Shown one piece after another: positions 4,966 to 57,574 of a stretch of DNA of 64,000 nucleotides (position 1 is the first letter of the stretch; every line of letters starts with the position of its first letter). Below the pieces are notes generated by a model, which was not told where the DNA came from, made no database searches, and saw only the letters and a list, made by a program, of their open reading frames with translations. The stretch lies in contig ML680086.1 of NCBI GenBank assembly GCA_007922225.1, positions 4,828,259-4,892,258 on the forward strand, in the 5' to 3' direction. Origin of the DNA: Emydura subglobosa. Lineage: Eukaryota; Chordata; Testudines; Chelidae. A program made the translations under genes and the position numbers.

Positions 4966-5799
4966 CAGATGAGCCCAGAGTCTATGAAAATTGTGATTCA
5001 AAGCTCAGTACCAAGACAAGAGCAATTGTGACAGTAGTCAAATGAAACCCATCTCTTTCCTGCAGTGTCAGTGAGGAGATAATAGGCGAGTGAATAGCTT
5101 CTTGGCCCAAGTCAGACACATGAACAGGCTGCTGTCTGCACTAAAGGAAAACATATTTCCAAAAGCCAAATGGAAGGGTGACTAACGGTGGCGTTACAGG
5201 GACTCCTCTTCCGAACCTACATGGTCTGTTCCGTCGCTGGTGAGAGCATGAGATATTTCGGGCATTGCCCTGTTCTCCCCCTTTCCCCTCCCCCCCCCGC
5301 GTGGAGTGGGCTATTCTATTTAAGGTCATGCTCTTTCCATAGAACACAGTCACTACCATGCAGGATCACTGGCCCATCTAGTCTGGGCACTGTTCCTTTC
5401 CGTCACTGTAACTGGGTCAATGAGAATTTACCCACAAGTGTCATTTCTGTGGGTTGGCAAAAGCTGAGCTCATCAGGGATTAGGCCTTTTGGTAACTCTG
5501 GCCTTGCAGCCCTAGATTTCATTCTTTCCTTCCACAGACCAGCTGGTAAGCAAATGAAGACACAGACACTCCTCATGAAGAGGAAGCAGAGATCCCACTT
5601 ATGACATTACTCTGCTCTTTGGAGAGCCTTAGGAGTTGCTGCCTGGGGCCACAGAAGGAAAGATTTGACTTGCTAAGGTAATTTCTGTGGTTCCACATTA
5701 GCCATCCCAAAGGAGCTCACTACAGCGAAAAACCCAGGGACAGGGAGGGTGGGACAGAAAAAATCTCTCTACCTGTTTCACTTCACATCTGCCTGAAGA
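4966..5799. other. Noncoding; 138-codon frame not supported
   Basis: A frame at 5188-5604 on the + strand is open but shows no domain, signal sequence or splice context, and overlaps an open frame on the other strand. A short pyrimidine tract lies near 5275-5300. Nothing else is recognised. Confidence 0.4.
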
Positions 5800-6060
5800 T
5801 GCATACAGAAGAGATATTCAGCCAGTAGTGCTCGGTGAAGACATGCACTAATATCAGGCAGCCATCCTGCAGATCTCTTGATACATGATTTCTCATATCT
5901 TTGCTCAGGAATTTGCTACAATCCTGGCAGAGTGGGCACTAAGGCCAGCATGTTATGGAGCAAGGTTTGCTTAGGCAGGTTCCGATTCACTTAGACCATG
6001 CATATGGAAGCAGTAAAGCTTTTTTGGGTCCCTGTCAAGAAGAAATAGGGGGAATCTCTT
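5800..6060 (-). pseudogene. DIRS tyrosine-recombinase C-terminal remnant
   Basis: On the minus strand the sequence reads EICRMAA followed, after a frame change and stops, by VHVFTEHYW. This corresponds to the conserved end of DIRS-type recombinases (DICKAATW...VHTFTSHY in the element at 57.4-57.5 kb). The final Y of the HY pair would be the nucleophile that attacks DNA during integration of a circular cDNA. Several stops and frameshifts make this a dead relic. It points the same way as the DIRS pieces at 13.8-15.6 kb and 24.7-28 kb. The upstream part (to about 6200) may belong to the same element but cannot be read. Confidence 0.65.
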
Positions 6061-7078
6061 TTCCTTCAGTTCTTACATCTAGATAGTAAAGGTTTAGATG
6101 TGTGTTGTGCCTATGGATGCCAGCAAAGCCCAAAGCTGGGCACAAAGTGCTTAAAGCCCAGGGACAGCTTCCTGGTGATGGTAAAGAGGGATATCAACTT
6201 CAATCAGAAAGAAGGGAACGTTGAACAAACTCTGAGGTATGCATTAATTGAAATACTGGTGCCAATATTCCTCAGCCATTAGTTTGTCAATGGCTAGTTG
6301 TGTTTAGTAGTGGCTACATGAGGGCTTTGTTCACTGGTCAACTGGGCTGCAGAAAGACACGTGGAAAGCTTCTTCACACTGCTCTGACCCAGAGAAACAA
6401 CCCCATGTGTACTCAACATTATTATTGATATGAATTAACAGAGCGCATTCAAAAGCATTGAGGTTCTTCATCAGATTCAAACAAATGAACCCATGACAGA
6501 GTGCTACAAACATTTAGTAAATGAGAGCCTTGACTTTAAATCTAAGGATTAGGATACAGTGACAGCCAAATTATTTGGGGGACAGAATTCCACCAGAAGG
6601 GACCTAGGTGGGCAGTGAATGAGTAATAACATGGACGTAACAAATGGGCTGACTTATGCCCTGGGCAGGTCTCACTCCTAGGAGGGTAATGTGGGCTTAC
6701 AAATCTCATGCCAGAACCCAGTTAATAGGCGGACAATGCAATAAAATAAAGTGAAACGTGAATTGCAAGGATACTGAAAAATTACAAAGGCATCACACTT
6801 GTGAATAGCCTATTGGAGGCAGAGAGAAGGTGAAAAGGTGAATGCAACAGTATGAAACTAAGGCATGAATCAAAATGCTAGTTGCTGAAGTTACCTATTT
6901 TAGAAGTCTTTAAGAGAGCACAATCTAGTCAAGATGAGCAGTAAGAGACCAATCACAACTGAAAAAGAACCTCAGACCTCAGACCCCTTGCTACCAGTAC
7001 AGCAAAGATTAAATTGCTCAAGAACACGGATGAGGATCAGACACAAGAAAGGACCTGTATTTGAAACAGACTCTGCAG
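6061..7078. other. Noncoding, no gene seen
   Basis: There are small open frames only, with no recognisable repeat ends. The last seven bases (7079-7085, agtctag) just beyond this stretch form the target-site duplication of the hAT element that follows. Confidence 0.5.
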
Positions 7079-10811: not shown

Positions 10812-11835
10812 AGTGATCAATGGCTCCATATCTGGCTAGCAGCTGGTCACAAGCGGAGTGCCCCAGGGGTCAGTCCTGGGGCCGGTTTTGTTCAACATCT
10901 TCATTAATGAACTGGAGGATGGGGTAGATTGCACCCTCAGCAAGTTTACAGATGACACTAAGCTGGGGGGAGTGGTAGATACCCTGGAAGGTACGGATAG
11001 GATACAGAAGGACCTAAACAAACTGGAGGATTGGGCCAAAAGAAATCTGATGAGGTTCAACAAGGACAAGTGCAGAGTCCTGCACTTAGGATGGAAGAAT
11101 CCCATGCACAGTTACAGACTGGGGACCGATGAGTTAGGCAGCAGTTCTGCAGAAAAGGACCTGGGGGTAACAGTGGATAAGAAGTTGGATATGAGTCAGC
11201 AGTGTGCCCTGGTTGTCAAGAAGGCTAATAGCATATTGGGCTGCATTAATAGGAGCATTGCCAGCAGATCGAGGGAAGTGATTATTCCCCTCTATTCGGC
11301 ATTGGCGAGGCCGCATTTGGAGTATTGTGTCCAGTTTTGGGCCCCCCACTAAAAAAAGGATGTGGAGAAGTTGGAGAGAGTCCAGCGGAGGGCAACAAAA
11401 ATGATTAGGGGGCTGGAGCACAAGACTTATGAGGAGAGGCTGAGGGAACTAGGCTTGTTTAGCCTGCAGAAGAGAAGAATGAGGGGGGATTTGATAGCGG
11501 CCTTTAACTACCTGAAAGGGGGTTCCAGGGACGATGGAGCAAGGCTGTTCTCAGTGGTGGCAGATGACAGAACAAGGAGCAACGGTCTCAAGTTGCAGTG
11601 GGGGAGGTCTAGGTTGGACATTAGGAAAAAGTTTTTCACTAGGAGGGTGGTGAAGCACTGGAATGGGTTACCTAGGGAGGTGGTGGAATCTCGATCTTTG
11701 GAGGTTTTTAAGCTGCGACTTGACAAAGCCCTGGCTGGGATTATTTAGCTGAGGTTAGTCCTGGTTAGTCCTGCTTTGAGCAGGGGGTTGGACTAGATGA
11801 CCTCCTGGAGTCCCTTCCAACTCTGTGATTCTAAG
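10812..11835 (+). mobile_element. CR1 LINE, 5'-truncated, nearly intact 3' half
   Basis: The reading frame (10858-11748) encodes the C-terminal half of the CR1 ORF2 reverse transcriptase. It has [19 protein letters not shown], then the catalytic block KFTDDTKLG (the xxDD aspartates), then the CR1 thumb/C-terminal domain ending [10 protein letters not shown] and a stop. One in-frame TAA at 11350-11352 breaks it; the copy at 41 kb has TAC (Tyr) there. The 3' UTR is short (about 80 bases) and ends ccaactctgtgattctaag, a decayed form of the ATTCTATG tail on which the LINE enzyme primes. 5' truncation is normal for LINE insertions. Few lesions suggest a relatively young insertion. Confidence 0.93.
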
Positions 11836-27847: not shown

Positions 27848-28055
27848 ACTGGCAGAAAAAAGAAACTGAGAGGCTGTAGGGCTGGTGGCATCTCATATAC
27901 CGCCATATGAGTGCAGGGCTCCAGAGAGCACCAGAGCGGGCCCAACGGATACCACTATGGAAAAAAAAAACTCTGGCAGTCACGCACATAAGTGTGCACA
28001 CACCTAACATGGAACTGACATGAGCACGCACTCAAAGAAGTCGTCCCATTATCCT
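27848..28055 (-). repeat. DIRS terminal inverted repeat
   Basis: Blocks ggcagaaaaaagaaactgag, gcatctcatataccgccata, gcagggctccagagagcacc and acatgagcacgcactcaaag match, in order, the right terminal repeat at 57.74-57.9 kb (ggcagaaagaagggactgag, gcctcatatactgcagcatg, ggggctctagggggcacc). It is the 5' terminus of the minus-strand DIRS. Confidence 0.8.
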
Positions 28056-28383
28056 GCCAGAGCATTAACAACAGTCCACCTAGGGCTTGCTTATGTGGAA
28101 ACTAGAACCAAAATCACGCACGTACATGCTAATTTCAAAAAGTGCCCTAAATAAACAGGTAACATTTTTATTTAAATTGTATCAAAATAGACTGCTCTTA
28201 TTCTGAAAGACACACGTACACCTACGGAGCAGCACCAGGATAGCTGACAATGTTTATTACAACCCCTTCAGTTATTTCGATTCCAGTTTCTGTGCAGATA
28301 AACCCTCAGAGAGCTGCTCCTCGCTCAGAATCCCAGGCCTGAAACACACACTAGCTTCTTGCAATGCACCTGTGTTAGCATTC
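28056..28383. other. Noncoding, no feature seen
   Basis: No repeat end or gene recognised between the DIRS terminus and the unassigned open frame that follows on the minus strand. Confidence 0.5.
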
Positions 28384-28656
28384 TCATGTATCATGGAAAT
28401 AGAACTTTCCACGCACCACCTGGAAGAAAAGGGATATTATTTTCCAGAGTCTGCCACTCTTCAACAAAACTTTGTGCTCTGCTGCTGAAAGTCCTTCTAT
28501 ATTCATCATAGCCAAATGCAGAGTTTCTAATTTATCAGCTTCAAGACTTGTGACAAATCTAATGTAATTTGTAAAGGCAGGAGTGTGACATCTCTCACAG
28601 AGATAATTCTTTAATACAGTTAGCAAGCTACAATGCAAAACCTTTAAAAGATAAAT
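28384..28656 (-). CDS. Unassigned 90-codon open frame, exon-like
   Basis: On the minus strand a frame runs from an acceptor-like ttttcccag (ending at 28657) to a TGA at 28384. It lacks an early ATG. The translation is protein-like: YLCERCHTPAFTNYIRFVTS, then LEADKLETLHLAMMNIEGLS, then AAEHKVLLKSGRLWKI, with amphipathic helical character and no low complexity. Directly upstream is an in-frame TGA and, at 28680-28745, a dispersed repeat. I do not recognise the family. It could be the 3' exon of an unknown gene on the same strand as NDRG3, a processed or duplicated fragment, or a piece of a transposon protein. The cttttcttccag before GKFYFHDT could also be a second acceptor. No functional claim is made. 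Confidence 0.3.
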   Translation of the reverse strand: MYLLKVLHCSLLTVLKNYLCERCHTPAFTNYIRFVTSLEADKLETLHLAMMNIEGLSAAEHKVLLKSGRLWKIISLFFQVVRGKFYFHDT

Positions 28657-28683
28657 CTGGGAAAACGTATTCTTCTCTCAGTA

Positions 28684-28745
28684 AAAGATATTACCTCACA
28701 CCTATCTTGTTTCTCATATCCTGAGCCAACACAGCTACAACAATA
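28684..28745. repeat. Interspersed repeat, copy C (tail, diverged)
   Basis: gatattacctcacacctatc then catatcctgagccaacacag and ctacaacaatact match the tails at 21.13-21.21 and 22.77-22.82 kb. Confidence 0.5.
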
Positions 28746-29295
28746 CTAATTCTCTCTTGACTGTCAGACTAGCAGAGATTGTGCGGCTTGGGAAGCCTGT
28801 TTTCCAGAGACCGTGTAGGTTTAAAGTTGTGAAACTGGGTTAGTCTTCCAAAGGGCTGCTTACTATCCCTTACAGACTTAAATAAGCAATTCTTATGGAT
28901 ATGAGATGCCAACAATGAAGTTATTTTCAAAGACAAGCAGGAGACAGGACAAGTTCAAAACTAGTGTTTGCAGACTGAACAAGATACTCAGATCTTTGCA
29001 CCCTGGGCATTTGCTCAGTGTTCACACTGCTGCTACCTTGAAGAGGCCCTTCCTTAATTATCCTCTGTAGAAAGGTATTTCTCCTGAACAATCCCTGCCT
29101 TTGTGCCATACCCTGTGTTGGAGCTTATTTTAACAGCTCATCTAGATCCTTTGATTATGCACACCTCAATCTTGGCACATTTCTCTTTTTCCAAGTAAAA
29201 AACCCTTATTTATAGCCCTTCAGGCCCTTTATCACCCTTGTTGCCCTCTGCTTTTTCCTCCGCTCTTCACTAATTCTTGTAACTGTCATTAGTTA
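28746..29295. other. Noncoding, no clear feature
   Basis: Sequence around 29160-29280 (cctttatcacccttgttgcc) may be a minus-strand LINE tail, but it is too diverged to call. Confidence 0.4.
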
Positions 29296-29626
29296 TTATC
29301 TTCGAAAAATCATGGAAGACCGAGATTCCAGAGGACTGGAAAAGGGCAATATAGTGCCAATCTATAAAAAGGGAAATAAGGACAACCCAGGGCATTACAG
29401 ACCAGGCAACTTAACTTCAGTACCCGGAAAAAAAAAGGAATAAATAATTAAGCAATCAATTTGCAAACACCTAGAAGATGATAAGGTGATAAGTAACAGT
29501 CAGCATGGATTTGTCAAGAACAAATTGTGTCAAACCACCCTGACAGATTTCTTATACAGGGTAACAAGCCTTGTGCATAGGAGGGAAGTGGTAGAGGTGG
29601 TATATCTTGACTTTAGTAAGGCTTTA
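29296..29626 (+). mobile_element. CR1 LINE RT fragment, part 1
   Basis: The + strand, with stops and shifts, reads PEDWK, then YKKGNK, then NSQHGFVKNKLCQTTLTDFL, then VVYLDFSKAL. YLDFSKA is RT motif A with the first catalytic Asp. The match stops at ggcttt (29625). The same CR1 seems to resume at about 32970, again about 34090, and ends at 35975. The intervening pieces are later insertions and small deletions. Confidence 0.9.
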
Positions 29627-29649
29627 GTAAGGTCCAAAAATCATCTTCA

Positions 29650-32600
29650 CTCCTTGTTAAAAAAAAAATAAAATGCTGGCACTGGCAATACCTTATTGGT
29701 TCTGCCCCAATTATTTTGCAAATGGCCCACACTCCTCTTAAGTACATTATGCCCTAAAAAATAAAAAAAAAGCCATGTATCCAGCCCTAAATTAGCTAAA
29801 TAAACCATAGCTTTAATAAATAAAAATATAAAAGTCCAACTACCTATGGCTTCCAACTAAGCCCCATATGCCCTAATAATTAAAAGTTCTGAGCATAATT
29901 GCCCTCTCTCTCCCTTCCCAATGAAAAACTAATAAAATTTACAAACAAAAAAAATTCTAAAATATTACTGTACAATTCCTTTATTATGCCAAATAATTTC
30001 ACAAACCCCTATATAACAATATAAACATTAAATATATATTATAAATAGTAATAGACTATAGATCCTGCTTTTGGTTTGTGTTTTGTTTATAAATAATATC
30101 ACATAAATCCATGATAGTACACAAAACACAAAATCAAAACATGCAATATAAAAAATTATATAATATTCTTGCTATTGTTTTACTGTGTATATATTCTGTG
30201 CTATGCTGATATAAACAAAAAAAATAGTGCAATCTCAAACAAATGTTATAAAATAGTACCCCCCTCCGTACTACTGTGTGGCTGGGGCAAAATACTGTAA
30301 AACTTAAAATAATGGCTTTCTGTAATTTTAAAAAGTAACTCACAATTAATGTTACCAAAATAAGTACCCCCTCCCCCCAAAAAGCCAGCCCAAATAAATT
30401 AATTTATTTAAACAAAGTAAATTAACCAAAAAAACCCCAAAGCAACATATTGTTATAGTATCAAAATCAGTCAAATAATTTACAAAAAAGCTAATTTTAG
30501 CTATTACTACATAAAAATATTCCACCTAATTAAAAAAACCACCTGTTACTAAGCTAAAAATATATTATCTGCAATAAAATTTAATAAATCCCTCTGCAAA
30601 TATAGTAATGTACATAAACACCTATATAAATGTACATTGTGCTCCCAAGCCCAAAAAATACAATGTTAAAAGCTTATTAAAAGAATTATAAAAACCAAGT
30701 ACTAAAACCCCCCAAAGTACACCTTGTAAAAAGTACATGTAGGCATATAAAATATTAACATATCCCACCTACATCCCCATTGTGCATCGTTTGTAACACC
30801 TCTAGTACAAAAACAGGTGCATTAAACAAACACCTAAGTAACACACAACACTAACACACATGTACGTCCCAAGCAAAACATTTTTAAAAAATATTAAAAA
30901 AATATAAAAGCATCAACAAAAATACTAAATACAATTATTAAAAAGAAATTTACAAATAAATTAAATATCCTAAACAAAAGCCTTAAAGCCCTTTCAAATC
31001 CCATAATACACACACATTCAGCCTTAAAATATAAAATAAAATTACTTAAAAATATATTTATACCCTTAAAAAAAAAAAAAAAAAAAAAAGAACATGCCTA
31101 AGCCTATTAAACCACACAAAAAGTATAATAAATGCTACCTTCAGAGCTTTAAGTTGCATACAATCATCCAACAAAAACGCAATAAAATTCTATCTAATAG
31201 AATAAAAAAATTTAAAATAATGCCAGCACCCAAAAAATCCTTAAATCGTTAATAAAAAATATTAAATTCCACAGTAAATGCCCAACCTGAAGTAATTACA
31301 GCATATATAATAATAATATCTAATGTTCGCATCATAAACATACACAAAATAAATATAAAAACTAAAATATAACCTATTAAACATCTAACATAAAAATAAG
31401 AAAAATTCAATTTACAAAGCCACACACATAAAAATAAAACCACAATAAAATCAAAATTAAAATATATTTATAAAAAACCACTAACACAATTTACATACCC
31501 TTATAAAAAATAAATTAAATATATAAAATCATCAATATGCTTTATTACCCAATAAAAAACAACAAAAGTCTACCATTATGTACATTAAACAAAGTTGTAT
31601 TTGTATATATACACAATGTACCCAAATTATAATTAATAAAATGTATTAAAAATATTAATCCTGCCCAAAATAAATGTTACTGTAATACTGATATATTAAA
31701 ATTATATAATTTATAAAATATAAAAAAATAGATTTTAGTAAATATTAATATTATAAAATATATTCAGCCTATAAAATTAAAAATCAATACTAATTTAGTA
31801 CAATGCATGCTAACACATTCAAACATAATAACCCTGCTTAGGCACATTCAAAAACAATTAAAAATCATAAATGAAATAATCAAACATAATAAAACTAAAA
31901 TAATCAAAGTCCTAAATGCTGCAAAAGCTGCCACAAAGCACAGTTAGTAAAAAACCCTACTAAAATAGTCCCCTACTGCCACTAAAATTTTAAATCTCAC
32001 ATTAAAATCACATTTAAATCTCACATTGCATCCCATTGTGCTTGTGTGTGTGTTGCAAATAGTTTCTATAATGGCTACAGTGGGACTTTTTTTAATAAAC
32101 TAAGAAATCTCTAAAGCAACTAAACTAAACTAAAAAACTCTGTATACAAGTAAAGCGGCGCTCTGCAATATACCCGGCCAACAAGAAAACACTAATTGTT
32201 CGGACCCCGGCTGGGGTGCCTTGAGCAACCGTCAAAAGTGTGTATCAAAAAGTCATTGTGGTGGCCTATTATGTTGCTTGACCACCATCCTGCAAGCCTA
32301 ACATAGCTTCAGTTGCTTGCTTGGCTATTCTGATCCCTGTAGCATAACATCTTCCAGTTGGCAAAAATAAATAGGATTACTGAGTAACCTTGCAAATGTC
32401 TCAGTTTCTGCATACCACGGCATATAACAAAACAAAATACATAACATGTATGCTTGCAGCTGCACATAAATAATAAAAACAACAAGTTATCCTTAAACGT
32501 CTGGGAGTACACTTTTTCACTGCCATGGGGCATATTTTTACACCACCCCTCCTATCACCAAATGTTGTTTAAACAACCCTAATCATCATCATAAATACAA

Positions 32601-32960
32601 AATATAATTAAAAATAAAAACCCAATATAATATATATAATCAAAAAATTAAATAAAAAATTAAAAATATTAAAAATCACCATTTAAACAAACAAACAAAC
32701 AAACAAACCCCCCACACTCTATCAACACCTAACTCTGCAAAAAATGTTGCCAATCAAAAAAAAAAATCCACTAACTTCCTAGCGGGGCCCCTAAAAAAAG
32801 TCATTCCTATATACAGCCTTCTAAACTGCTTAGCCTCTAAATTTAATATATTAGGATTAATTTTAAACTTTATATTTAATTAATATATCTATAAAATACT
32901 TTGCATATTAAACTTTATTAATCTACAAATCAAGCATACCATGTCTCACTAATATTCACA
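29650..32960 (+). mobile_element. G-to-A hypermutated, AT-rich insert (probable LTR retroelement)
   Basis: The + strand is rich in A, poor in G and retains ordinary C. Remaining Gs are almost all followed by C or T. In 30361-30900 I counted 42 Gs by hand: 24 GT, 15 GC, 2 GG, 1 GA. Flanking CR1 sequence has normal GA and GG, so the change is sharp. This is the mark of cytosine deamination in the minus strand during reverse transcription. A less affected block at about 32040-32545, with aataaa (32366-32371), could be a 3' LTR. No protein can be read because stop codons fill all frames. Neither a matching 5' LTR nor a clean target duplication was found, so the element class is inferred. It may be an LTR retrotransposon or an endogenous retrovirus. 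Confidence 0.6.
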
Positions 32961-32964
32961 CTAA

Positions 32965-33090
32965 TCAGTAAGTGTCCAGTATCAACAGTTATTAGTGGTT
33001 CACAGTCAAGTTGGAAAGCCATATCGAGTAGGTCCAGCAAGGATCAGTTCTGGGTCTGGTTCTGTTCAATATCTTATAAAGTCTGCGGAT
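32965..33090 (+). mobile_element. CR1 LINE RT fragment, part 2
   Basis: The block ttattagtggttcacagtca, then ggatcagttctgggtctggt and tctgttcaatatctt, then aagtctgcggatgat is the CR1 segment that encodes [20 protein letters not shown] and KFADD. About 110 bases of CR1 are missing between part 1 and here, and a short deletion joins FNI to KFADD. This segment carries the RT catalytic DD. Confidence 0.85.
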
Positions 33091-33094
33091 GATT

Positions 33095-34088
33095 AAATCT
33101 TCATTTCCTGCGGTGAATGGGTTTAAAATCCAAGCTGCGATCACCCCCCCACCCACACAAAGAGCCCTTTGCAGTTTGTCTCTTTAAGGGTTTGAAAGAT
33201 TTCACCACCACTCTCCCCACTTGGTGAATGCATTTTAAATGCCCAGCAAGCCCTTTGCAGTTTGTCCCTTTAAGATTTGCCCCTTTGAAAGTTTAGCCCT
33301 TTAAAGTTTGTCCCTTTGAAAGATTTCACCACCCACCTCCCTCCCCGCTTGGTGAATGCGTTTCAAATGCCAGCAGTGAGAGGAAATTCTTTGCTACATT
33401 GTTTCAGTGGCCAATCATGGAAATTGATACTTTCTTAAGAGTTTATTCACAATGCTACATGTGGATACATTATATCATGCTTTCCATCAGTGAAATGGAA
33501 ACATTTGTATCACTGTATTAATATACTAACTGACTCCGTTGTTATTTATCTTACATTCTACAGACACCTGTAGAACCAAAATCAAAGGCAAGCAATATAC
33601 AGGGGGTGGTAGGGGGAGCATAAAAGGCAAATAGCATACAGGTGGGGGGGATGGTTTGGTGGAGGGAAAAATCAAAGGCAAGCAATATACGGGGGTGGTG
33701 GGGGGAGAATAAAAGGCAAACAGCATACAGTTCTAAAGTAATCCAGGATAAGCTGCGATGTATTTGTCACAGTCAAAATGAGAGCATAGTTCAGCTGGCT
33801 CCGTGTGCTGCAGCAATGGCGATCGGGGGAGTAAAAAAACAGCATGAAAATCCTTTTCCTGTTTGTTTGGGGGTGGGGGAAGCAGCACTGCATCCTGGGA
33901 TGATGACACTGGTCACAACAGCCTCTATGGTTAGTTGCACTGTGGGATAGCTTCCCACATTGCACTGCTTTCTAATTCGAATTAAGCCTGGCCAGTGTGG
34001 ACACAAGAAACCAGCACAAACACTGTAGTGTGGACAGTCTGCATTGCTTTCTATAAATCGCTTTCTGTGCTGCAGTGTAGACATAGCC
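33095..34088. mobile_element. Harbinger-like MITE remnant with internal tandem repeats
   Basis: The right end reads ctgcagtgtagacatagcct, the TIR type seen in the intact Harbinger MITEs. Interior tgggatagcttcccacattg is also typical of them. The left end is not matched. Two tandem structures occur: a duplicated gaaagatttcaccacc / cttggtgaatgc unit (33.19-33.37 kb) and a 90-bp direct repeat (units beginning atcaaaggcaagcaatatac at 33581 and 33671). It splits the CR1. Confidence 0.6.
33581..33731. repeat. 90-bp tandem repeat, about 1.7 copies
   Basis: The units start at 33581 and 33671 with an identical 20-mer, atcaaaggcaagcaatatac, followed by gggggtggt, then ataaaaggcaaa and agcatacag in both. 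Open frames over it are spurious. Confidence 0.9.
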
Positions 34089-34089
34089 T

Positions 34090-35291
34090 CAATAAGGGCA
34101 AATGCAAAGTACTTCATTTAGGAAGGAACTATCAATTGCACTCATACAAAATGGGAAATGACTGCCTAGGAAGGAAGTACTGAAGAAAAGGATCTGGGGT
34201 CATAGTAGATCACAAGCTAAATATGAGTCAACAGTGTCATACTGTTGAAAAACAAGCAAACATTATTCTGGGATGTATTAGCAGGAATGTTGTAAGCAAG
34301 ACATGAGAAGTGATTCTTCTGTTCTACTTGTGCCGATTAGACGTTAACTGGAGTATTTTGTCCAGTTCTGGGTGCCACATTTCAGGAAAGATGTGGACGA
34401 ATGGGAGAGTGTCCAGGGAAGAGCAACAAAAATGATTAAAGGTCTATAAAATATGAGCTATGAGGAAAGATTGAAAAAAATGGGTTTGTTTAGTCTGGAG
34501 AAGAGAAGACTGAGGGGGACAGGATAACAGTTTTCAAGTACATAAAGGATAGGATGAGAAGCTTAAATAGTATCAAAGGCAGTTTAGGTTGAAAAACTGT
34601 CAGGGTAGTTAAAAGTGCAATAAATTGCCTAGGGAGGTTGTGGAATCTCCATCATCAGAGATTTCTAAGAGAAGGTCAGACAAACACCTGTCAAGGATGG
34701 TCTAGATCAGCGGCTCTCAACCTTTTCTTAACGAGTACCAGTCGGATCAAGTCAAGTACCACTAGTCCTGACCCGGGTGGTACTCGACTAAAAAAAGGGA
34801 GGAACAGTACTCTCCGCCGAATCCTGACCGCCGTTACCCAAATTTCGGCGGCAGGGTTTCTACCATAGGGATATGCAGAGCCGGCCAGGTTGCATGCACA
34901 AGGTGAAACCCACCGCCGAAACCCTGCAGCTGTTTACCACTTTTAGGCAGCAGGGTTTGAGGCGGGAAGGAATTTTGGCGGCAGCAGGGGGGAAGCCGGC
35001 GGAATGCTACGCATCTTCGGCGGGGGGAGAGGGGAAATCGGCGGCAGTAGAGAAAGCAGATTCGGCGGTGGGGGGGATTTCGGCGGAAGCAGGGGTGCAG
35101 CTGTCGGTATGATACACGTCTTCGGTGGGGGGGGTTCGGCGGCAGCGGGGGGGAATTCGGCGGTAGCGGCAGGGTACGCCTCGCGTACCACCAAGCCGTC
35201 CTCCGCGTACCACCGGTTGAGAACCCCTGGTCTAGATAATACCTAGTCCTGCCTTGAGTGCAGGAGACTGGACCAGACTAACCCTCAAGGT
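34090..35291 (+). mobile_element. CR1 LINE 3' half, part 3
   Basis: It resumes at aagggcaaatgcaaagtact (the CR1 KCKVLHLGRN region) and runs through YKMGNDCLGR, then [20 protein letters not shown], to the 3' UTR with tagtcctgccttgagtgcag. Numerous stops are present. It is interrupted by a hAT MITE at 34708-35229 and then by a 647-bp LTR that separates the last bases of the tail. Confidence 0.92.
34708..35229. mobile_element. hAT MITE (522 bp, perfect 8-bp TSD), CGG-rich
   Basis: Ends CAGCGGCTCTCAACC and GGTTGAGAACCCCTG are inverted repeats. gtctagat flanks both sides exactly (34700-34707 and 35230-35237). The interior is dominated by ttcggcgg / gcggcagc units, giving an unusually CpG-rich island in an AT-rich area. 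The several open frames within are compositional artefacts. Confidence 0.95.
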
Positions 35292-41011: not shown

Positions 41012-41887
41012 GAAGTGGGGGGAGTGGTAGATACCCTGAAAGGTAGGGATAGGATACAGAAGGACCTAAACAAACTGGAGGATTGGGCCAAAAGAAATCT
41101 AATGAGGTTCAACAAAGAAAAGTGCAGAGTCCTCCACTTAGGAAGGAAGAATCCCATGCACAGCTATAGACTGGGGGACCGACGAGCTAGGCAGCAGTTC
41201 TGCAGAAAAGGACCTGGGGGTAACAGTGGATAAAAAGCTGGATATGAGTCAGCAGTGTGCCCTGGTTGTCAAGAAGGCTAATGGCATATTGGGCTGCATT
41301 AGGAGGGGCATTGCCAGCAGGTCACGGGAAGTGATTATTCCCCTCTATTCGGCATTGGTGAGGCCGCATTTAGAGTATTGTGTCCAGTTTTGGGCCCCCC
41401 ACTACAAAAAGGATGTGGACAAGTTGGAGAGAGTACAGCAGAGGGCAACAAAAATGATTAGGGGGCTGGAGCACAGGACTTATGAGGAGAGACTAAGGAA
41501 ACTGGGCTTGTTTAGTCTGCAAAAGAGAAGAATGAGGGGGGATTTGATAGCGGCCTTTAACTACCTGAAAACGGGTTCCAGGGAGGATGGGGCTAGGCTG
41601 TTCTCGGTGGTGGCAGATGACAGAACAAGGAGCAACGGTCTCAAGTTGCAGTAGGGGAGGTCTAGGTTGGACATTAGGAAAAAGTTTTTCACTAGGAGGG
41701 TGGTGAAGCACTGGAATGGGTTACCTAGGGAGGTGGTAGAATCTCCATCTTTAGAGGTTTTTAAGCTGAGGCTCGACAAAGCCCTGGCTGGGATGATATA
41801 GCTGAGGTTAGTCCTGCTTTGAGCAGGGGGTTGGGCTAGATGACCTCCTGAGGTCCCTTCCAACTCTAATATTCTATGATTCTATGA
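41012..41887 (+). mobile_element. CR1 LINE, 5'-truncated copy 2
   Basis: This is the same subfamily as the copy at 10.8-11.8 kb and very similar by eye: [39 protein letters not shown] and [20 protein letters not shown]. It starts just after the catalytic DD, so only the RT thumb and C-terminus remain. A frameshift near 41180-41230 and a TAG at 41652-41654 break the frame. It ends with the canonical ctaatattctatgattctat tail. Confidence 0.93.
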
Positions 41888-51431: not shown

Positions 51432-54400
51432 ATGGCCGGGCCGTGCCCCGGCCGCCTGGATTTAAGCCGCCTCCACGATTGATACCTTAAGTGCCTGGGG
51501 ATGTGGAGACAAAAATCACATAGTGGCGTCTGCAGCGCCACGTGCACCGCCCCCCCACACGGATAAAAAGGCAGCCTAGGGAGGGTTGACTCAGCAGCAC
51601 GAGCCGCACGTACCTGTCTCCTTATAAGGGGATGAAGCGACCTCACCTGCTGGTGCGTGGTCAGCAACTGCCCGGGAAAATTGTAATCACCTGGTTGGCT
51701 GGTCCATACCTGCCCAGGAAATCATGAGCACCTGGTTGGCTAAACTCCAAGCCATGACCTTAGAAGGTCATGCAGTAAATAGCAACCAATGGGGCTTAGC
51801 CTCTGCTGACTGCGGGAAACTATAAAAGTTCAAACCCAGGTAGCAGAGAGCAGAGAGAAATTGAATCTACTCGGCACCCCGTGTATCTCCTGGTTGTGGC
51901 GGTTCAGCGGGCTGACATCTTTCCCAGCCTGCTTCTCTGCGAACTGATCCCTCAAAGTGGCTCTTTCCCGTCTGCAGTATCTAAAGCAAACGGCAACTGA
52001 ATTTGGCCAACATGGTATACCTGTATATAATGTTTGTGAATATGGATTAACTGTTTTCTGTTGTGTTTGTCTTGTAACTTTTTTGGGGAACTCCAAAACC
52101 GGACACCGTAGTGTGTCACTCTGGCAGCCATGCGTTGATCCGGAGAGATCACGAAATGCTAAAGTCTTGGGTGGCGCATTTTGTCCTTTTGCGCACGGAG
52201 TTCTCCTGCCCTTTGCTATCACTGTTTGCTGTGCAATTGCTTGCTGTGGAACTGTTTATTATAGAAACAGAACTGTTTATTATAAGGATAGAATTGTTTA
52301 TTACAAAATAAAGGGTTTATTGATTAAGCAAACCCCTAGAATCATCACTGTCTCGCCGACCTCCCGTATCCCAAACTGAACCTATCAGAGTTTTTCTCTC
52401 CGTTTCCACAGGGGGAAGAGCAGGAAAGACAAGTGTAAGATATGCAGGGCTTTTAAACTGCGGACTCAGAAGGACAGAGAGATCAGGTTAAAAGCCTTGC
52501 TTATGGAGGTAGCACACCGCCCAGCATCTGAGCCGTACCGCTCCACCTCGGCACCAAGTGTTACCTTGGTGCAGGGTGAACCGCAGGCACCGAGCTCGAC
52601 TCGGCACTGAGCCACATCCCCAGTGTTGAAGAAGATGAGACAGAGCGCAGAGCATGGACACTCCCCTGAGCTGTCGGTACAGGCATGGTCGAGGCGGAGA
52701 TGCACCAGCCATGGCCTATCGAGTCTTCTCCGGTACCTGCATCTCCGAGCAGGCACCGGACTCATGGGAGTGGGAAAGTGCTCCTGCCGACACCGTCAAC
52801 ACTGGAGGATTTTCAGGCGGCAAGAGCCTTGTTGGCCTGCCTACGCCACCTCCGCCCGCCCCCTCCGCCGAGGGACAAGGAGCCGGTGTCCCGGGGCAAG
52901 CCCACATTGGATCCCCCCGAAGGGCGGTGGAGATCCCCACTACAGGGAGGAAGATCTCCCGCCAGACGGCCACCAGGGGTAGAGCAAGGACGCTCTCCCA
53001 GCAGTTGCTCCAGGTTGGTGTCGTCGAGCCGACCTGCACTAGCATGGGACGTGGAGACTCCCTCTCAGTGCCAACGTCAATCCCCGGCACTGGAGGCAGC
53101 ACATGCCAGGAGGCGGCACCGGTCGAGGTCCGCCAGGCAGCGCCTGGACAGCTCCAGTTCCCAATCCCCAGCACCGAGGATTTCGCACCACGCAGTCCCG
53201 GATGTGGAACTCGGTCACCGGAGTAAGGCTCAGCACCGCGGAGTTCGGAGCGGCGCTGGTCTCAATTACCAAGGGGCAAGCAGTGCCGCAAGTCCTCAGT
53301 ACCAAGGCTCCAGTACTGAGAGCCCTTCGGATCACCCCTCCGTCCACTGGCCACTCACGGCGACAGAGGCAATCCTCGTCGAGCTCCATGTCGGAGGCGG
53401 CGAGAAGATGGTCCCTGGCACAACACGACACCTGGGACCAAGGACAGCCAAGGCACTGCTAGTTTAGTGGCTTGGGGTCCCGCAGGGGGGACAGTCATCG
53501 GGACAGCCGACGCCCCCACAAGGCGTCACAGCAGGTGGCATTGTCAGCCCCAGTTTGGCCCCAGATGGGGGTATCCAGATGGGACCAGGGCCCCAATCCA
53601 CCCTGTCAGCAGGGGTGCAGTCCGTGCCCCCAACATGGGAGAAGGCCCATAGACATCGCTCCTGGGACGAGGAGTCGGACCCCACGGAGGGCCCCTCTAT
53701 GGTCCCTTCGGCAGGCAGGGGAGCACCCACAAGACATCCCTAGGCAATCCTCTTCCCCCTCCCTGGATGAGACAGTCTCACAGGACTACATGGCGCCATT
53801 GGAGGGTTTCAGGGTGCACCAGGAGCTGCTCAAGAGGGTGGCCCCAACTTGGGGCTGGAGGTCAAGGAGTTAGTGGAGGCCGTCGATACCCTCTTCAATG
53901 TGCTGACAGCAGCTGCCCCAGCGACAGTGCCCCACCAGTCCATGATAGGGTCCTTGAAATTGTTAAGCCCTGTGGCAAACCCTTTCCTCGGTCACCCCTA
54001 CGTCGGAGGTGGCTGAGAAAAACGTACTATGTCTGGCTGAAGGGTTCGAGTATCCGTTCACTCACTCAGCCCCAGGAAGCCTGGTGGTGGACACAGCCAA
54101 CTAGCGGGAAAGGCAAGGTCAGCCTGGTTCCATTCCTGAGAACAAAGACAACAAAAAGTTATGGATTTGTTTGGGAGAAAAATTTATTCCACAGAAGCCC
54201 TGCAGTTCAGGATTGCTAACCATCAGGCCCGCCTGGGGAGATATAATTTTAGTTTGTGGGACTCCCTCAAGCAGTTTGCTGAGGCCCTGCCCCAGGACTA
54301 GGCCGCAGACTTCACCACCATCCTGGATGAAGGAATCACGGTGGGTAGGGCAGCGCTCCAAACGTCCAGTGACGTTGCTGAATCGGCGGGTAGGGCTATA

Positions 54401-54760
54401 GCCTCTACCATTTCCTTGAGGAGATGATTGTGGCTGCAACCCTGAGGCCTGTCCCAGGAGGTGCAGCAATCAATCCAGGACCTCCCCTTCAATGGGTCGG
54501 CCCTCTTCTCCAATCAGACCGATGCGAAGCTGCACGGTCTGAAGGACTCCAGGGACATGCTTTGCTTCCTGGGCCTGTACATGCCCCAGGCTTCCAGGAG
54601 CCAGTCACAGCCCCAGGCGCAGCAGCAACCAGGCCTCCACGTAGGCCCTTTCAACCCTACAGAAATAGGGAAAGAAATAGGGGGTTTAGAAGACAGCCCC
54701 CCAGCTCATCCTCAGCCCCCCAGCAGGGGCCCCCCAGGGGATCGGGCAATCATAGGAGAC
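51432..54760 (+). pseudogene. DIRS gag, split by a solo LTR
   Basis: An ATG at 51432 opens MAGPCPGRLDLSRLHD, then a TGA and YLKCLG. The remainder resumes after the 909-bp LTR at about 52412 with GKSRKDKCKICRAFKLRTQK, then DREIRLKALLMEV. Long open segments follow (52685-53467, 52654-53226, 53472-53873) in changing frames, rich in Pro, Ser and Arg, as DIRS gag proteins are. The C-terminal part near 54461-54600 reads QDLPFNGSALFSNQTD then AKLHGLKDSRDML, matching the DIRS piece at 15.5 kb. Gag forms the particle in which reverse transcription occurs. No intact frame remains. Confidence 0.78.
51502..52410 (+). mobile_element. Solo LTR inside DIRS gag (909 bp)
   Basis: Termini tgtggagacaa and ccgtttccaca form an inverted TGTGGA...TCCACA pair. 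gggga (51497-51501) and ggggg (52411-52415) flank it, a 5-bp duplication with one change. It has a ccaat box (51786-51790), a TATA box (tataaaag, 51821-51828) and a polyadenylation signal (aataaa, 52307-52312), all on the + strand. Removing it joins KCLG to the KDKCK part of gag, which confirms the insertion site. Only LTR sequence remains. Confidence 0.85.
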
Positions 54761-55530
54761 AGTTTTGATGGTGTGCCCGAGGGTGACGCCCCTACTTCTC
54801 TCCTGGACTCGCCCTACCCCATCCCGAACAGGTTAAGGGCATTCTATCCCGATTGGGCAAAGATTACATCGGACCGTTGGGTACTCGGGATAGTCTCTGG
54901 AGGCTACACCACTACCACCCCAACAACCCCCCACCTCCATCGCTCTTCAGGGACCCCTCTCATGAGCAACTCCTCTTGCAGGACATGGACACCCTCCTCA
55001 ACACAGGAGCAGTGGTTATGGTTCCTCAAGGCAGAAGGGGGAAGGGATTCTATTCGAGGTTCTTCCTTATCCAAGGCAAAAGGGGGTCTGAGACTCATAT
55101 TAGACCTGTGTCATGTGAACAAATATGTCTAACGACTCGGGTTTCGCAGGGTTTCCCTAGCCTCCATAATCCCTTCCCAGGATCCAGGAGACTGGTATGC
55201 AGCCCTCGATCTCAAGGATGCATACTTTCATGGGTCCATTCTCCCCAGCCACAGGCGCTTCCTCTGCTTCACAGTGGCTGGCTCCCACTACCAATTTACA
55301 GCCCTGCCCTTTGGCCTATCTTCGTCTCCAAGGGTGTTCACCACATGCAGTCCAGGTTCCAAGTGCAGGGGAGCGTGACCCTCACTTGTTCCATGTGCAG
55401 CAGGCTGGGACTCCTCAGAAACAAGAAGAAGTCTATACTAACCCCAGTGGAACGCATAGAACCCATTGGGGTCACCCTGGACGCTTCCCAGGCCACAGCC
55501 TTCCTGCCTCAGCCATGTTTCGAGGCGATG
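54760..55530 (+). pseudogene. DIRS reverse transcriptase, YxDD region deleted
   Basis: The pieces in order are PPSLFRDPSHEQLLLQDMD, then GKGFYSRFFLI with its shifted continuation GGLRLILDLCHVNKYV, then DWYAALDLKDAYFHGSI (motif A Asp retained) and ALPFGLSSSPRVFT. In other DIRS elements the YLDD box follows shortly after PRVFT. Here the sequence jumps (about 55345) straight to QVQGSVTLTCSMCSRLGLL, then RNKKKSILTPVERIE, which lies after YLDD in the family. So the catalytic aspartate pair is gone and this copy cannot reverse-transcribe. Two or more frameshifts also occur. Confidence 0.85.
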
Positions 55531-56540
55531 GTCTCATCATCTCTCAGCTACACTGATGCCTCACGACAACAGCCAGGCACCGCCACGAGCTGTTAGGCCA
55601 TATGGTGGCCTCCACATAGTGGTTGGCCTCCATGTATGTGCCGAGCAAACACTCACTGAATTGGGTGGTCACAATCCCCCCGCCCGTTCTAGCCTCCCGA
55701 GATTGGTGGAGATCTCCCAGGGCAGTGTTGAAGGGCGTTCCATTCAGGGAACCGGTCCTGTCGGTCACCCTACTCTCCAATGCCTCGGATGTGGGATGAG
55801 GAGCCCACATCAGTGCCAACCTGAGCACTCAGAGGTTCTGGTCAGGGGAGGACAGGCGCCTGCATATCAGCGTGAAGGAGCTGAGGGCTATTAGCCTAGC
55901 ATACAGGGTGTTCCTCCGATTCCTGACAGGCAGAGTAGTGCAGGTGCTGACGGACAACACCGCAGCTATGTTTTATATAAACAGGCAAGGAGGGGCGCGT
56001 TCCTTGACTCTCTGCAAGGAAGCTACCCGTCTGTGAGACTTTGCCATGAGGCACAACTTTCACTTGACTGCCTCTCACCTCCCGGGAGTGAGAAACGATG
56101 AGGCGGATGGCCTCAGCAAGTCCTTCTACCCCACCATGACTGGTTGCGGCACCCGGAGGGAGTGACTATGATCCTCCAGAAGTGGGGTGTTCCCCAACTG
56201 GACCTATTTGCATCGGCCTGGAATGCGAAGTGCCCGAGGTCCTGCTCGCTTCGGGCTCACGAGACCGGGTTGATTTCCGACGCATTCCTCACCGACTGGG
56301 CGGGGACCCTCATGTACGCGTTCCCGCCCATTCCACTCCTGCCCAAGGTCCTACTGGAAATAAAGAGGGACAGGGAAGACGTCATACTCATCACTCCGGT
56401 CTGGCCGAGACAGCACTGGTTCAGCATGCTACTGGACCTCTCGATTGCCCCACTCATGGAGCTCCTCAGGCAGAACGACTTTTTCTCCCAGGATCATGGT
56501 CGCCTGTCACACCCAGACCTGGACTCCCTGCACCTCACGG
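55530..56540 (+). pseudogene. DIRS RNase H domain
   Basis: The stretch around 55945-56130 encodes VQVLTDNTAAMFYINRQGG then ARSLTLCKEATRL, a stop, and AMRHNFHLTASHLPGVRNDE then ADGLSKSF. TDNTAA holds the second metal-binding Asp of RNase H, and HLPGVRNDEADGLS is the conserved C-terminal His/Asp region. The domain removes the RNA template after cDNA synthesis. Stops and frame changes show it is dead. Confidence 0.85.
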
Positions 56541-57574
56541 CCTGAAGGCCCTGTGGCTGACGGAGGGAGAGAGAGCCTGCTCGGTGCAGATCCAACAAGT
56601 CCTGCTGGGCAGCAGGAAACCTTCTACACAGGTTGTGTATCGGGCTAAGTGGAGATGGTTTACCTCTTCGGCGGAGTCCCCGGGGCATTCTGCCCAGCCT
56701 CTCGCCTCTGCAGGCGATCCTGGAGTACCTGCTCCAGCTAAAGTGCCAGGGTCTGGCACTGACCTTGTTGAAGGTTCACTTGGCGACCATTTCGTCCTTC
56801 CATCAGTCACTAGAGGGGAGATCCCCATTCTCTCATCCCATGTCGGTCAGGTGACTCAAAGGGGTGGAGATGCTGTATCCGCAGGTCTGCGACCCGGGCC
56901 TTCCTGGGATCTCAACCTGGTCCTCTCGAGACTCATGGGGCCCCCCTTTGAACCCATGCTTTCATGGAAGGTAGCCTTCCTGGTGGCCATTACCGCGGAC
57001 AGGAGGGTCTCTGAAATTAGGGCTTTGACCTCAGAGCCCCCTTATACAGTATTCTATAAGGATAAACTGCAGCTGAGGCCGCACCCAACCTTCCTGTCCC
57101 AGGGGAGTTTTCCCAGTTTCATTGTAACCAAGATAATTTTCTCCCTGTGTTTCTCCCAAATCGCATGGTTCGGAGGGGGAGAGGAGATGGCATTCACTGG
57201 ATGTGAGACGAGCCCTGGCCTTCTACATCGAGCGTACAAAGCCACTCCGGAAATCTATACAGCTCTTCGTCGCAGTGGCGGACTGGATGAAAGGATCACC
57301 TGTCTCCACCCAGCGTATCTCCGCATGGATTACATCTTGCATCAAGTGCTACTGTGAGCAGGCGAATGTGTCGCTTCCGGGTGTCATCACAGCGCACTCA
57401 TCCAGAGCTCAGGCCTCCTCTGCGGCCTTCCTGGAGGGAGTGCCCCTGCAAGATATCTGCAAGGCCGCCACCTGGTCATTGGTGCATACCTTCACGTCCC
57501 ACTACACCATTGTTCAGCAGGCGAGAGAGGACGCGGGTTTCGGCAGAGCCAAGTTGAGGGCAAATCACCGGTAA
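56540..57574 (+). pseudogene. DIRS tyrosine recombinase, one frameshift
   Basis: It starts with SRKPSTQVVYRAKWRWF (the N-terminal DNA-binding part), continues in the frame of 56182-57357 through AFLVAITADRRVSEIRAL (first catalytic Arg, RRVSE), then shifts by about 57200 to the frame of 57203-57574. There it reads FVAVADWMKGSPVSTQRISA, VITAHSSRAQASSAAFLEGV (the His-x-x-Arg box), DICKAATW (Trp) and HTFTSHYTIV (the nucleophilic Tyr). All catalytic residues are visible but in two frames. The enzyme would join the circular DIRS cDNA to the genome. This is the best-preserved gene of the element. Confidence 0.9.

Follow-up and report, generated by a model that had tools for sequence, protein, structure and literature searches.

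G-to-A hypermutation of an endogenous retrovirus in a reptile genome, with edited and unedited relatives

DNA editing of LTR retrotransposons across vertebrates was reportedly described by Knisbacher and Levanon in 2016, and Yu et al. are said to have described plus-strand C>T changes in the 5′ U3 of HIV in 2004. In APOBEC3-hypermutated HIV-1 and in mouse and human endogenous retroviruses (ERVs), sense-strand G>A changes lie in GA and GG contexts and the target is single-stranded minus-strand DNA. In HIV, less editing is found just downstream of the polypurine tract (PMC3310730, in excerpt). Hypermutated ERVs are already known from vertebrates (PMC6523648 and PMC7760323, both in excerpt), and G>A editing of LTR elements is especially strong in the zebra finch (same excerpt of PMC6523648). 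For the lizard, the available part of PMC3880073 gives G>A editing in 85 of 32872 L1 elements and none in LTR elements, a mutator activity of lizard APOBEC1, and an APOBEC3 exclusive to placental mammals.

The element described here lies in a stretch of 64,000 nucleotides from Emydura subglobosa, hereafter the window. It shares with APOBEC3-hypermutated HIV-1 and ERVs the sense-strand G>A changes in GA and GG and, as we propose below, a single-stranded minus-strand target. As in HIV, editing is reduced just 3′ of the polypurine tract, here in sister copies (excerpt of PMC3310730), and as in the vertebrate-wide editing of LTR retrotransposons the change is G>A in an LTR element (excerpt of PMC6523648). 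Editing of lizard L1 is likewise G>A in a non-mammalian amniote; however, in the available part of PMC3880073 it is rare and outside LTR elements, whereas here an ERV family has many edited copies, with an intensity above that given there for lizard L1. Unlike APOBEC3-hypermutated proviruses, the extreme copies L017 and L020 have 71–83% of their GC and GT sites edited too. With hypermutated proviruses already known, the notable points are the editing intensity and the record kept in the LTRs. The family is not reported among the matches listed for ERV hypermutation in turtles, reptiles or crocodilians, a set that did not cover Knisbacher and Levanon 2016. In a reptile host, the data argue strongly that retroviruses were restricted through DNA editing by some deaminase that is not APOBEC3.

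The first-pass annotation had described a 3.3-kb insert in which G survives almost only before C or T. The insert stands, and its bounds have been corrected from 29650–32960 to about 29629–32987. The features are as follows (window positions).

about 29629–32987, + (sense) strand: damaged endogenous retrovirus, G>A hypermutated (alignment to dispersed copies L009–L028; composition)
29650–32960, + strand: low GA/GG region of the first-pass annotation (66 GR, i.e. G before a purine, among 284 G)
29961–30662, + strand: piece aligned to ten unedited relatives (ten pairs pooled: G>A 892, A>G 67)
29913–29946, + strand: internal deletion junction, RNase H–integrase region gone (common to L015, L017, L018, L019, L020, L023, L024 and L028)
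32258–32271, + strand: small deletion joint, polypurine tract and about 25 first U3 bases absent (junctions of copies compared by eye)
32272–32987, + strand: 3′ LTR without U3 start, terminus ...CCAGTATCAACA (LTR matches in sister copies; composition)
29300–29628, + strand: host repeat, CR1-like by eye, left flank (normal GA/GG)
32988–33110, + strand: host repeat, CR1-like by eye, resuming right of the element (by eye)

Between 29650 and 32960 a purine follows 0.23 of the G, compared with 7617 of 13946 (0.55) in the remaining window (binomial p = 6e-27) and with an expectation of 0.53 from the base composition of the insert itself. The insert also lies below the minimum of 0.409 among 235 one-kb windows outside it (mean 0.541, sd 0.058). 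The earlier hand count over 30361–30900 was reproduced exactly (42 G: 24 GT, 15 GC, 2 GG and 1 GA). G density is 8.6% in the insert and 23.0% outside, and the depletion is mildest at about 32000–32560. C density is 19.1% and 22.5%, respectively. Since C is near normal while G falls, one base has been lost, on one strand, and plain AT-richness does not account for the composition, as had been argued at first pass. GA and GG are at a normal level in both flanks, in agreement with the earlier remark on the CR1-like sequence, and the change is confined to the element.

The insert represents a damaged endogenous retrovirus lying inside what appears to be a CR1-like repeat, of which about 100 bases are presumably gone between the halves on either side. 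The window copy has lost its 5′ LTR and leader, and with them the primer-binding-site (PBS)-like sequence, as well as pol and the purine tract, and has kept its 3′ LTR, in which the first part retains more G and the second half is heavily depleted. No terminal repeats were found within the window copy because its 5′ LTR is missing, and Rfam at the gathering threshold gave zero matches over 28000–35000. Elsewhere in the window, 52639–57357 is GC-rich with long open frames and looks by eye like a DIRS-type retroelement, and 10840–11352 and 41142–41654 hold open frames that resemble by eye the ends of CR1-type reverse transcriptases.

The signature is not a matter of one reptile locus, as had been assumed at first, and is present in many copies in this genome. 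A search of the genome with the window copy gave 128 candidates, the best 40 of which were scored (76–100% identity), and twenty 10-kb stretches were taken for analysis. In seven copies (L010, L013, L014, L018, L019, L023 and L026) direct repeats about 4.6–6.9 kb apart match window 32272–32987, and these repeats are therefore LTRs. A homologous PBS-like leader, which we take to fit tRNA-Asn, stands behind six of the seven left LTRs (TGG intact in five) and is missing behind that of L014. Paired LTRs flank the element in L010, L013, L019, L023 and L026, and in L018, where the 5′ LTR is clipped at the locus end. All 14 copies inspected have a purine-rich tract ahead of the 3′ LTR. An open piece on the + strand of L013 is an rve integrase core (E = 1.4e-13). 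In the unedited copy L030 an open frame contains RNase H, H2C2 and rve; the closest solved structure is the foamy-virus (PFV) integrase, and the frame is 51% identical to a goose protein across 70% of its length. The position of the PBS-like leader after the 5′ LTR, of the purine tract before the 3′ LTR and of the integrase frame on + identifies + as the sense strand. GATTC, a candidate target-site duplication, stands on either side of L026; the candidates at L010 and L023 have one mismatch in five, and none was seen in L013. The pol deletion of the window copy recurs in eight others, so that nine examined copies carry it.

All 20 copies that were found with the edited query contain a low-GA stretch. 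A search from an edited copy returns edited copies first, and an edit can then pass for ancestral composition. This bias was removed by a protein search with the integrase piece of L013, in which the best 150 of 2693 candidates were scored and 20 loci taken. The observed/expected ratio of GA was 0.93–1.03 in 13 of these loci, 0.82 in L033, 0.53–0.67 in five and 0.13 in L013's own locus. A piece of about 750 bases was aligned for 19 edited and 10 unedited rows. L016, L022 and L033 (insertions in the piece) and L029 and L043 (the loci of L013 and L025, respectively) were removed before counting, and coverage of the piece was insufficient in L021, L030, L034, L035, L038, L047 and L048. Unedited relatives are thus present in the same genome: GA observed/expected is 0.97–1.12 in all ten, which have about 22% G, and low GR is not uniform across the family; uniformly low GR is what the annotation had named as refuting its case. 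G content is 21–23% in the unedited rows, 8.7% in the window copy and 2.7% in L017, the lowest. A rises from 30–32% to 43% and 49%, and C and T barely shift. Many integrase sites are D or E in unedited copies and N or K in edited ones. The unedited reference spans window 29961–30662; elsewhere we rely on composition and on comparison among edited copies.

Against the ten unedited relatives (at most 697 bases each, 1681 mismatches pooled), the window copy has 892 G>A, 67 A>G, 172 C>T and 126 T>C mismatches. G>A is by far the largest class, with a preference for GA/GG context on one strand, which is the outcome that the annotation had named as support. The edited share is.93 at GA,.80 at GG,.47 at GT and.28 at GC (the last from the per-copy table), the C>T share is.13–.18 across the four contexts, and G>A among unedited copies is.09–.13 whatever the context. 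In 18 of the 19 edited rows GA and GG are far more edited than GT and GC; only the barely edited L045 departs from this (GA.26, GG.05, GT.08, GC.07), and the complete order GA ≥ GG > GT ≥ GC holds in 14 of 19. L017 is the most edited extreme, with GA.99, GG.95, GT.83 and GC.71. In L023, L024, L025 and L028, GT is at or below GC and both are close to background, which leaves GA and GG as the only edited contexts in these copies. Minus-strand motifs were pooled without L028, a segmental duplicate of L024, and without L045: TTC, CTC, TCC and ATC have the highest edited shares (.90–.92) and GGC the lowest (.14). AID, which had been offered as a candidate enzyme, was rejected, as its WRC hotspots are among the least edited contexts (TAC.42, TGC.38, AAC.38 and AGC.30 vs TTC.92). 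Edited and unedited copies in one genome thus yield an enzyme motif, TTC, CTC, TCC and ATC first and GGC last, that can be matched to candidate enzymes.

A single round of reverse transcription on a single template produces both LTRs of a provirus. In three sister copies the LTRs differ asymmetrically, with positions of 5′ G and 3′ A against 5′ A and 3′ G at 43:11 in L010, 59:5 in L026 and 52:6 in L018. The 5′ LTR of L018 is only partly read, because its locus starts inside that LTR with the U3 start outside; L014 (67:5) was excluded from this evidence since no PBS-like leader follows its left LTR. In the first 170 columns of the 3′ LTR, G>A is found at 1/33 sites in L010 and 5/34 in L026, and further on at 42/59 and 54/61. 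The first 170 columns of the 5′ LTR, at the start of U3, carry plus-strand C>T in three sister copies, at YC vs RC sites 11/17 v 6/22 in L010 (Fisher p =.026), 20/23 v 3/18 in L019 (p = 7.5e-6) and 12/21 v 1/21 in L026 (p = 5e-4); in L019 it extends beyond column 170 (12/19 v 1/22). The 3′ G>A excess is absent in the LTR pairs of L013 (2:7), L019 (5:3) and L023 (7:3), and the 5′ C>T excess in L013 and L023. The purine tract and the leader retain GR, and in 11 copies the 500-base flank beyond the 3′ LTR has a GR/G of.54. A peak of the kind reported for HIV just 5′ of the 3′ polypurine tract was not seen in composition, the measure for this part, which has no unedited reference; G increases over the last 150 bases ahead of the purine tract.

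We propose that the G>A changes of the window copy very probably arose by deamination of minus-strand cDNA, before integration, by a host enzyme of APOBEC type. The annotation's idea of deamination of CC and TC in this strand is borne out by the G>A mismatches, by their GA/GG context and by the identification of + as sense. During reverse transcription, C in minus-strand cDNA would become U and appear as a G-to-A change in the sense strand, the deaminase preferring YC (TC ≥ CC >> AC > GC); other copies of the family would have been edited likewise at varying intensity, and further copies would have escaped. From established retroviral replication, the minus-strand LTR DNA would be left single once plus-strand strong-stop DNA had been copied and moved, and the strong-stop DNA itself would be exposed around its transfer, giving C>T in the 5′ U3. 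The G>A in the 3′ LTR and the YC-context C>T in the 5′ U3 match what is predicted for deamination of single strands, and thus point to editing in reverse transcription. An edit profile set by single-strand exposure fits L010, L018 and L026, and L013 and L023 differ. Since L013, L019 and L023 have no 3′ G>A excess, and L013 and L023 no 5′ C>T excess, some of their internal edits may be inherited from a template that was already edited, or precede strand transfer. By analogy with L010, L018 and L026, the window copy, whose 5′ LTR is missing, was probably edited in its own reverse transcription, and we infer that the enzyme belongs to the host's AID/APOBEC family. LTR pairs of this kind naturally preserve the sequence in which the steps of reverse transcription took place.

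Whether the edited copies go back to one editing event or to many was examined with trees and with edit sharing. A tree built with G and A treated as one state is star-like. In the G/A-blind tree the heavily edited L010 groups with the unedited L040 (95% bootstrap), and 17 edited rows (not L010 and L045) lie on one side of a branch with non-significant support of 40/94; a topology in which all 19 edited rows form a single clade is not rejected (p-AU 0.22). Residual edit sharing was computed after fitting copy, context and site effects, with the close pairs L017/L020 and L024/L028 and the barely edited L045 omitted, and is −0.053 inside the deletion subfamily, −0.050 across and −0.017 among others. 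Sharing within the subfamily is no higher than across, so these values do not suggest that the subfamily inherited its edits. The window copy shows no special sharing with any other copy (largest residual.08). Site heterogeneity is 2.2–3.7, well above 1. GA is edited in nearly all edited copies (.71–.99 in 18 of 19 rows), and a layer of ancestral GA edits common to all of them may therefore exist, absorbed by the fitted site effects. Non-G/A sites diagnostic for an edited subfamily amounted to three columns, two of them beside C-runs, and were set aside.

A further reading, to which we give somewhat less than an even chance, is that a pol-deleted lineage kept spreading, mobilised in trans, with each member sampled hypermutated. 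In a genome that presumably has no APOBEC3, it would have been edited anew in each reverse transcription by a deaminase with YC preference, either APOBEC1 or a member of another AID/APOBEC clade, with about 88% of G lost at most; integration would have stayed possible since purine tract, leader and LTR ends were protected. If this is true, the paired LTRs document in the germline when each strand was single.

A mixed history, also compatible with the editing mechanism, is a real possibility: a lightly edited, mainly GA-edited, pol-deleted template was mobilised in trans and most of its copies were then edited further. This would explain the shared pol deletion, the near-universal GA edits next to GT and GC states that differ from copy to copy in a comparison without L045, and the mildly edited L013, L019 and L023 with no 3′ G>A excess. 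However, the strong context order by itself also yields near-universal GA edits, and L025 and L019 retain 20–30% of their GA sites unedited.

That all edited copies inherited the edits of a single hypermutated master provirus mobilised in trans, which the mechanism would also allow, is improbable. The pol deletion common to nine copies, the three proviruses with no 3′ G>A excess, the 17 rows on one side of a branch and the unrejected 19-row clade speak for it, but the LTR asymmetry of L010, L018 and L026 requires editing in each copy's own reverse transcription. The placement of L010 beside L040, a residual sharing no higher inside the subfamily than outside, and GG editing from.50 to.95 within the subfamily argue against it as well.

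Misincorporation by reverse transcriptase, e.g. at low dCTP, also yields G>A on the sense strand. It is nevertheless very unlikely, since errors in minus-strand LTR DNA would pass to both LTRs, and G>A in the 3′ LTR only and YC-context C>T in the 5′ U3 require a change after synthesis. Mutation after integration, by CpG decay or by AID at a transcribed locus, is just as hard to credit: old insertions do decay, and transversions and C/T changes are present as well, but the context is GA/GG rather than CG, the flanks are normal, and the WRC motifs of AID rank low. A low G content that the virus already had, comparable to that of A-rich lentiviruses, is refuted: the 20 loci that each hold a low-GA stretch came from an edited query, some relatives have normal G, and the two LTRs within a provirus can differ by G>A in one direction.

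Some copies share edits in pairs. The strongest residual sharing is.50 for L017/L020,.38 for L012/L027 (82 sites) and.38 for L024/L028, followed by.17 for L018/L019 and.16 for L011/L012. L024 and L028 lie about 200 kb apart on contig C223 and represent an edited provirus duplicated with its flanks (94–95% identical, edits shared). L012 and L027 share edits despite only 78% identity. The near G-free L017 and L020 have edits in common and are 91% identical over 2.6 kb only, either because an edited copy was recopied or because a duplicated stretch has broken ends. Directly beside L020, one of the two most edited copies, lies an array of diverged tandem repeats (L020 oriented, 5370–6890).
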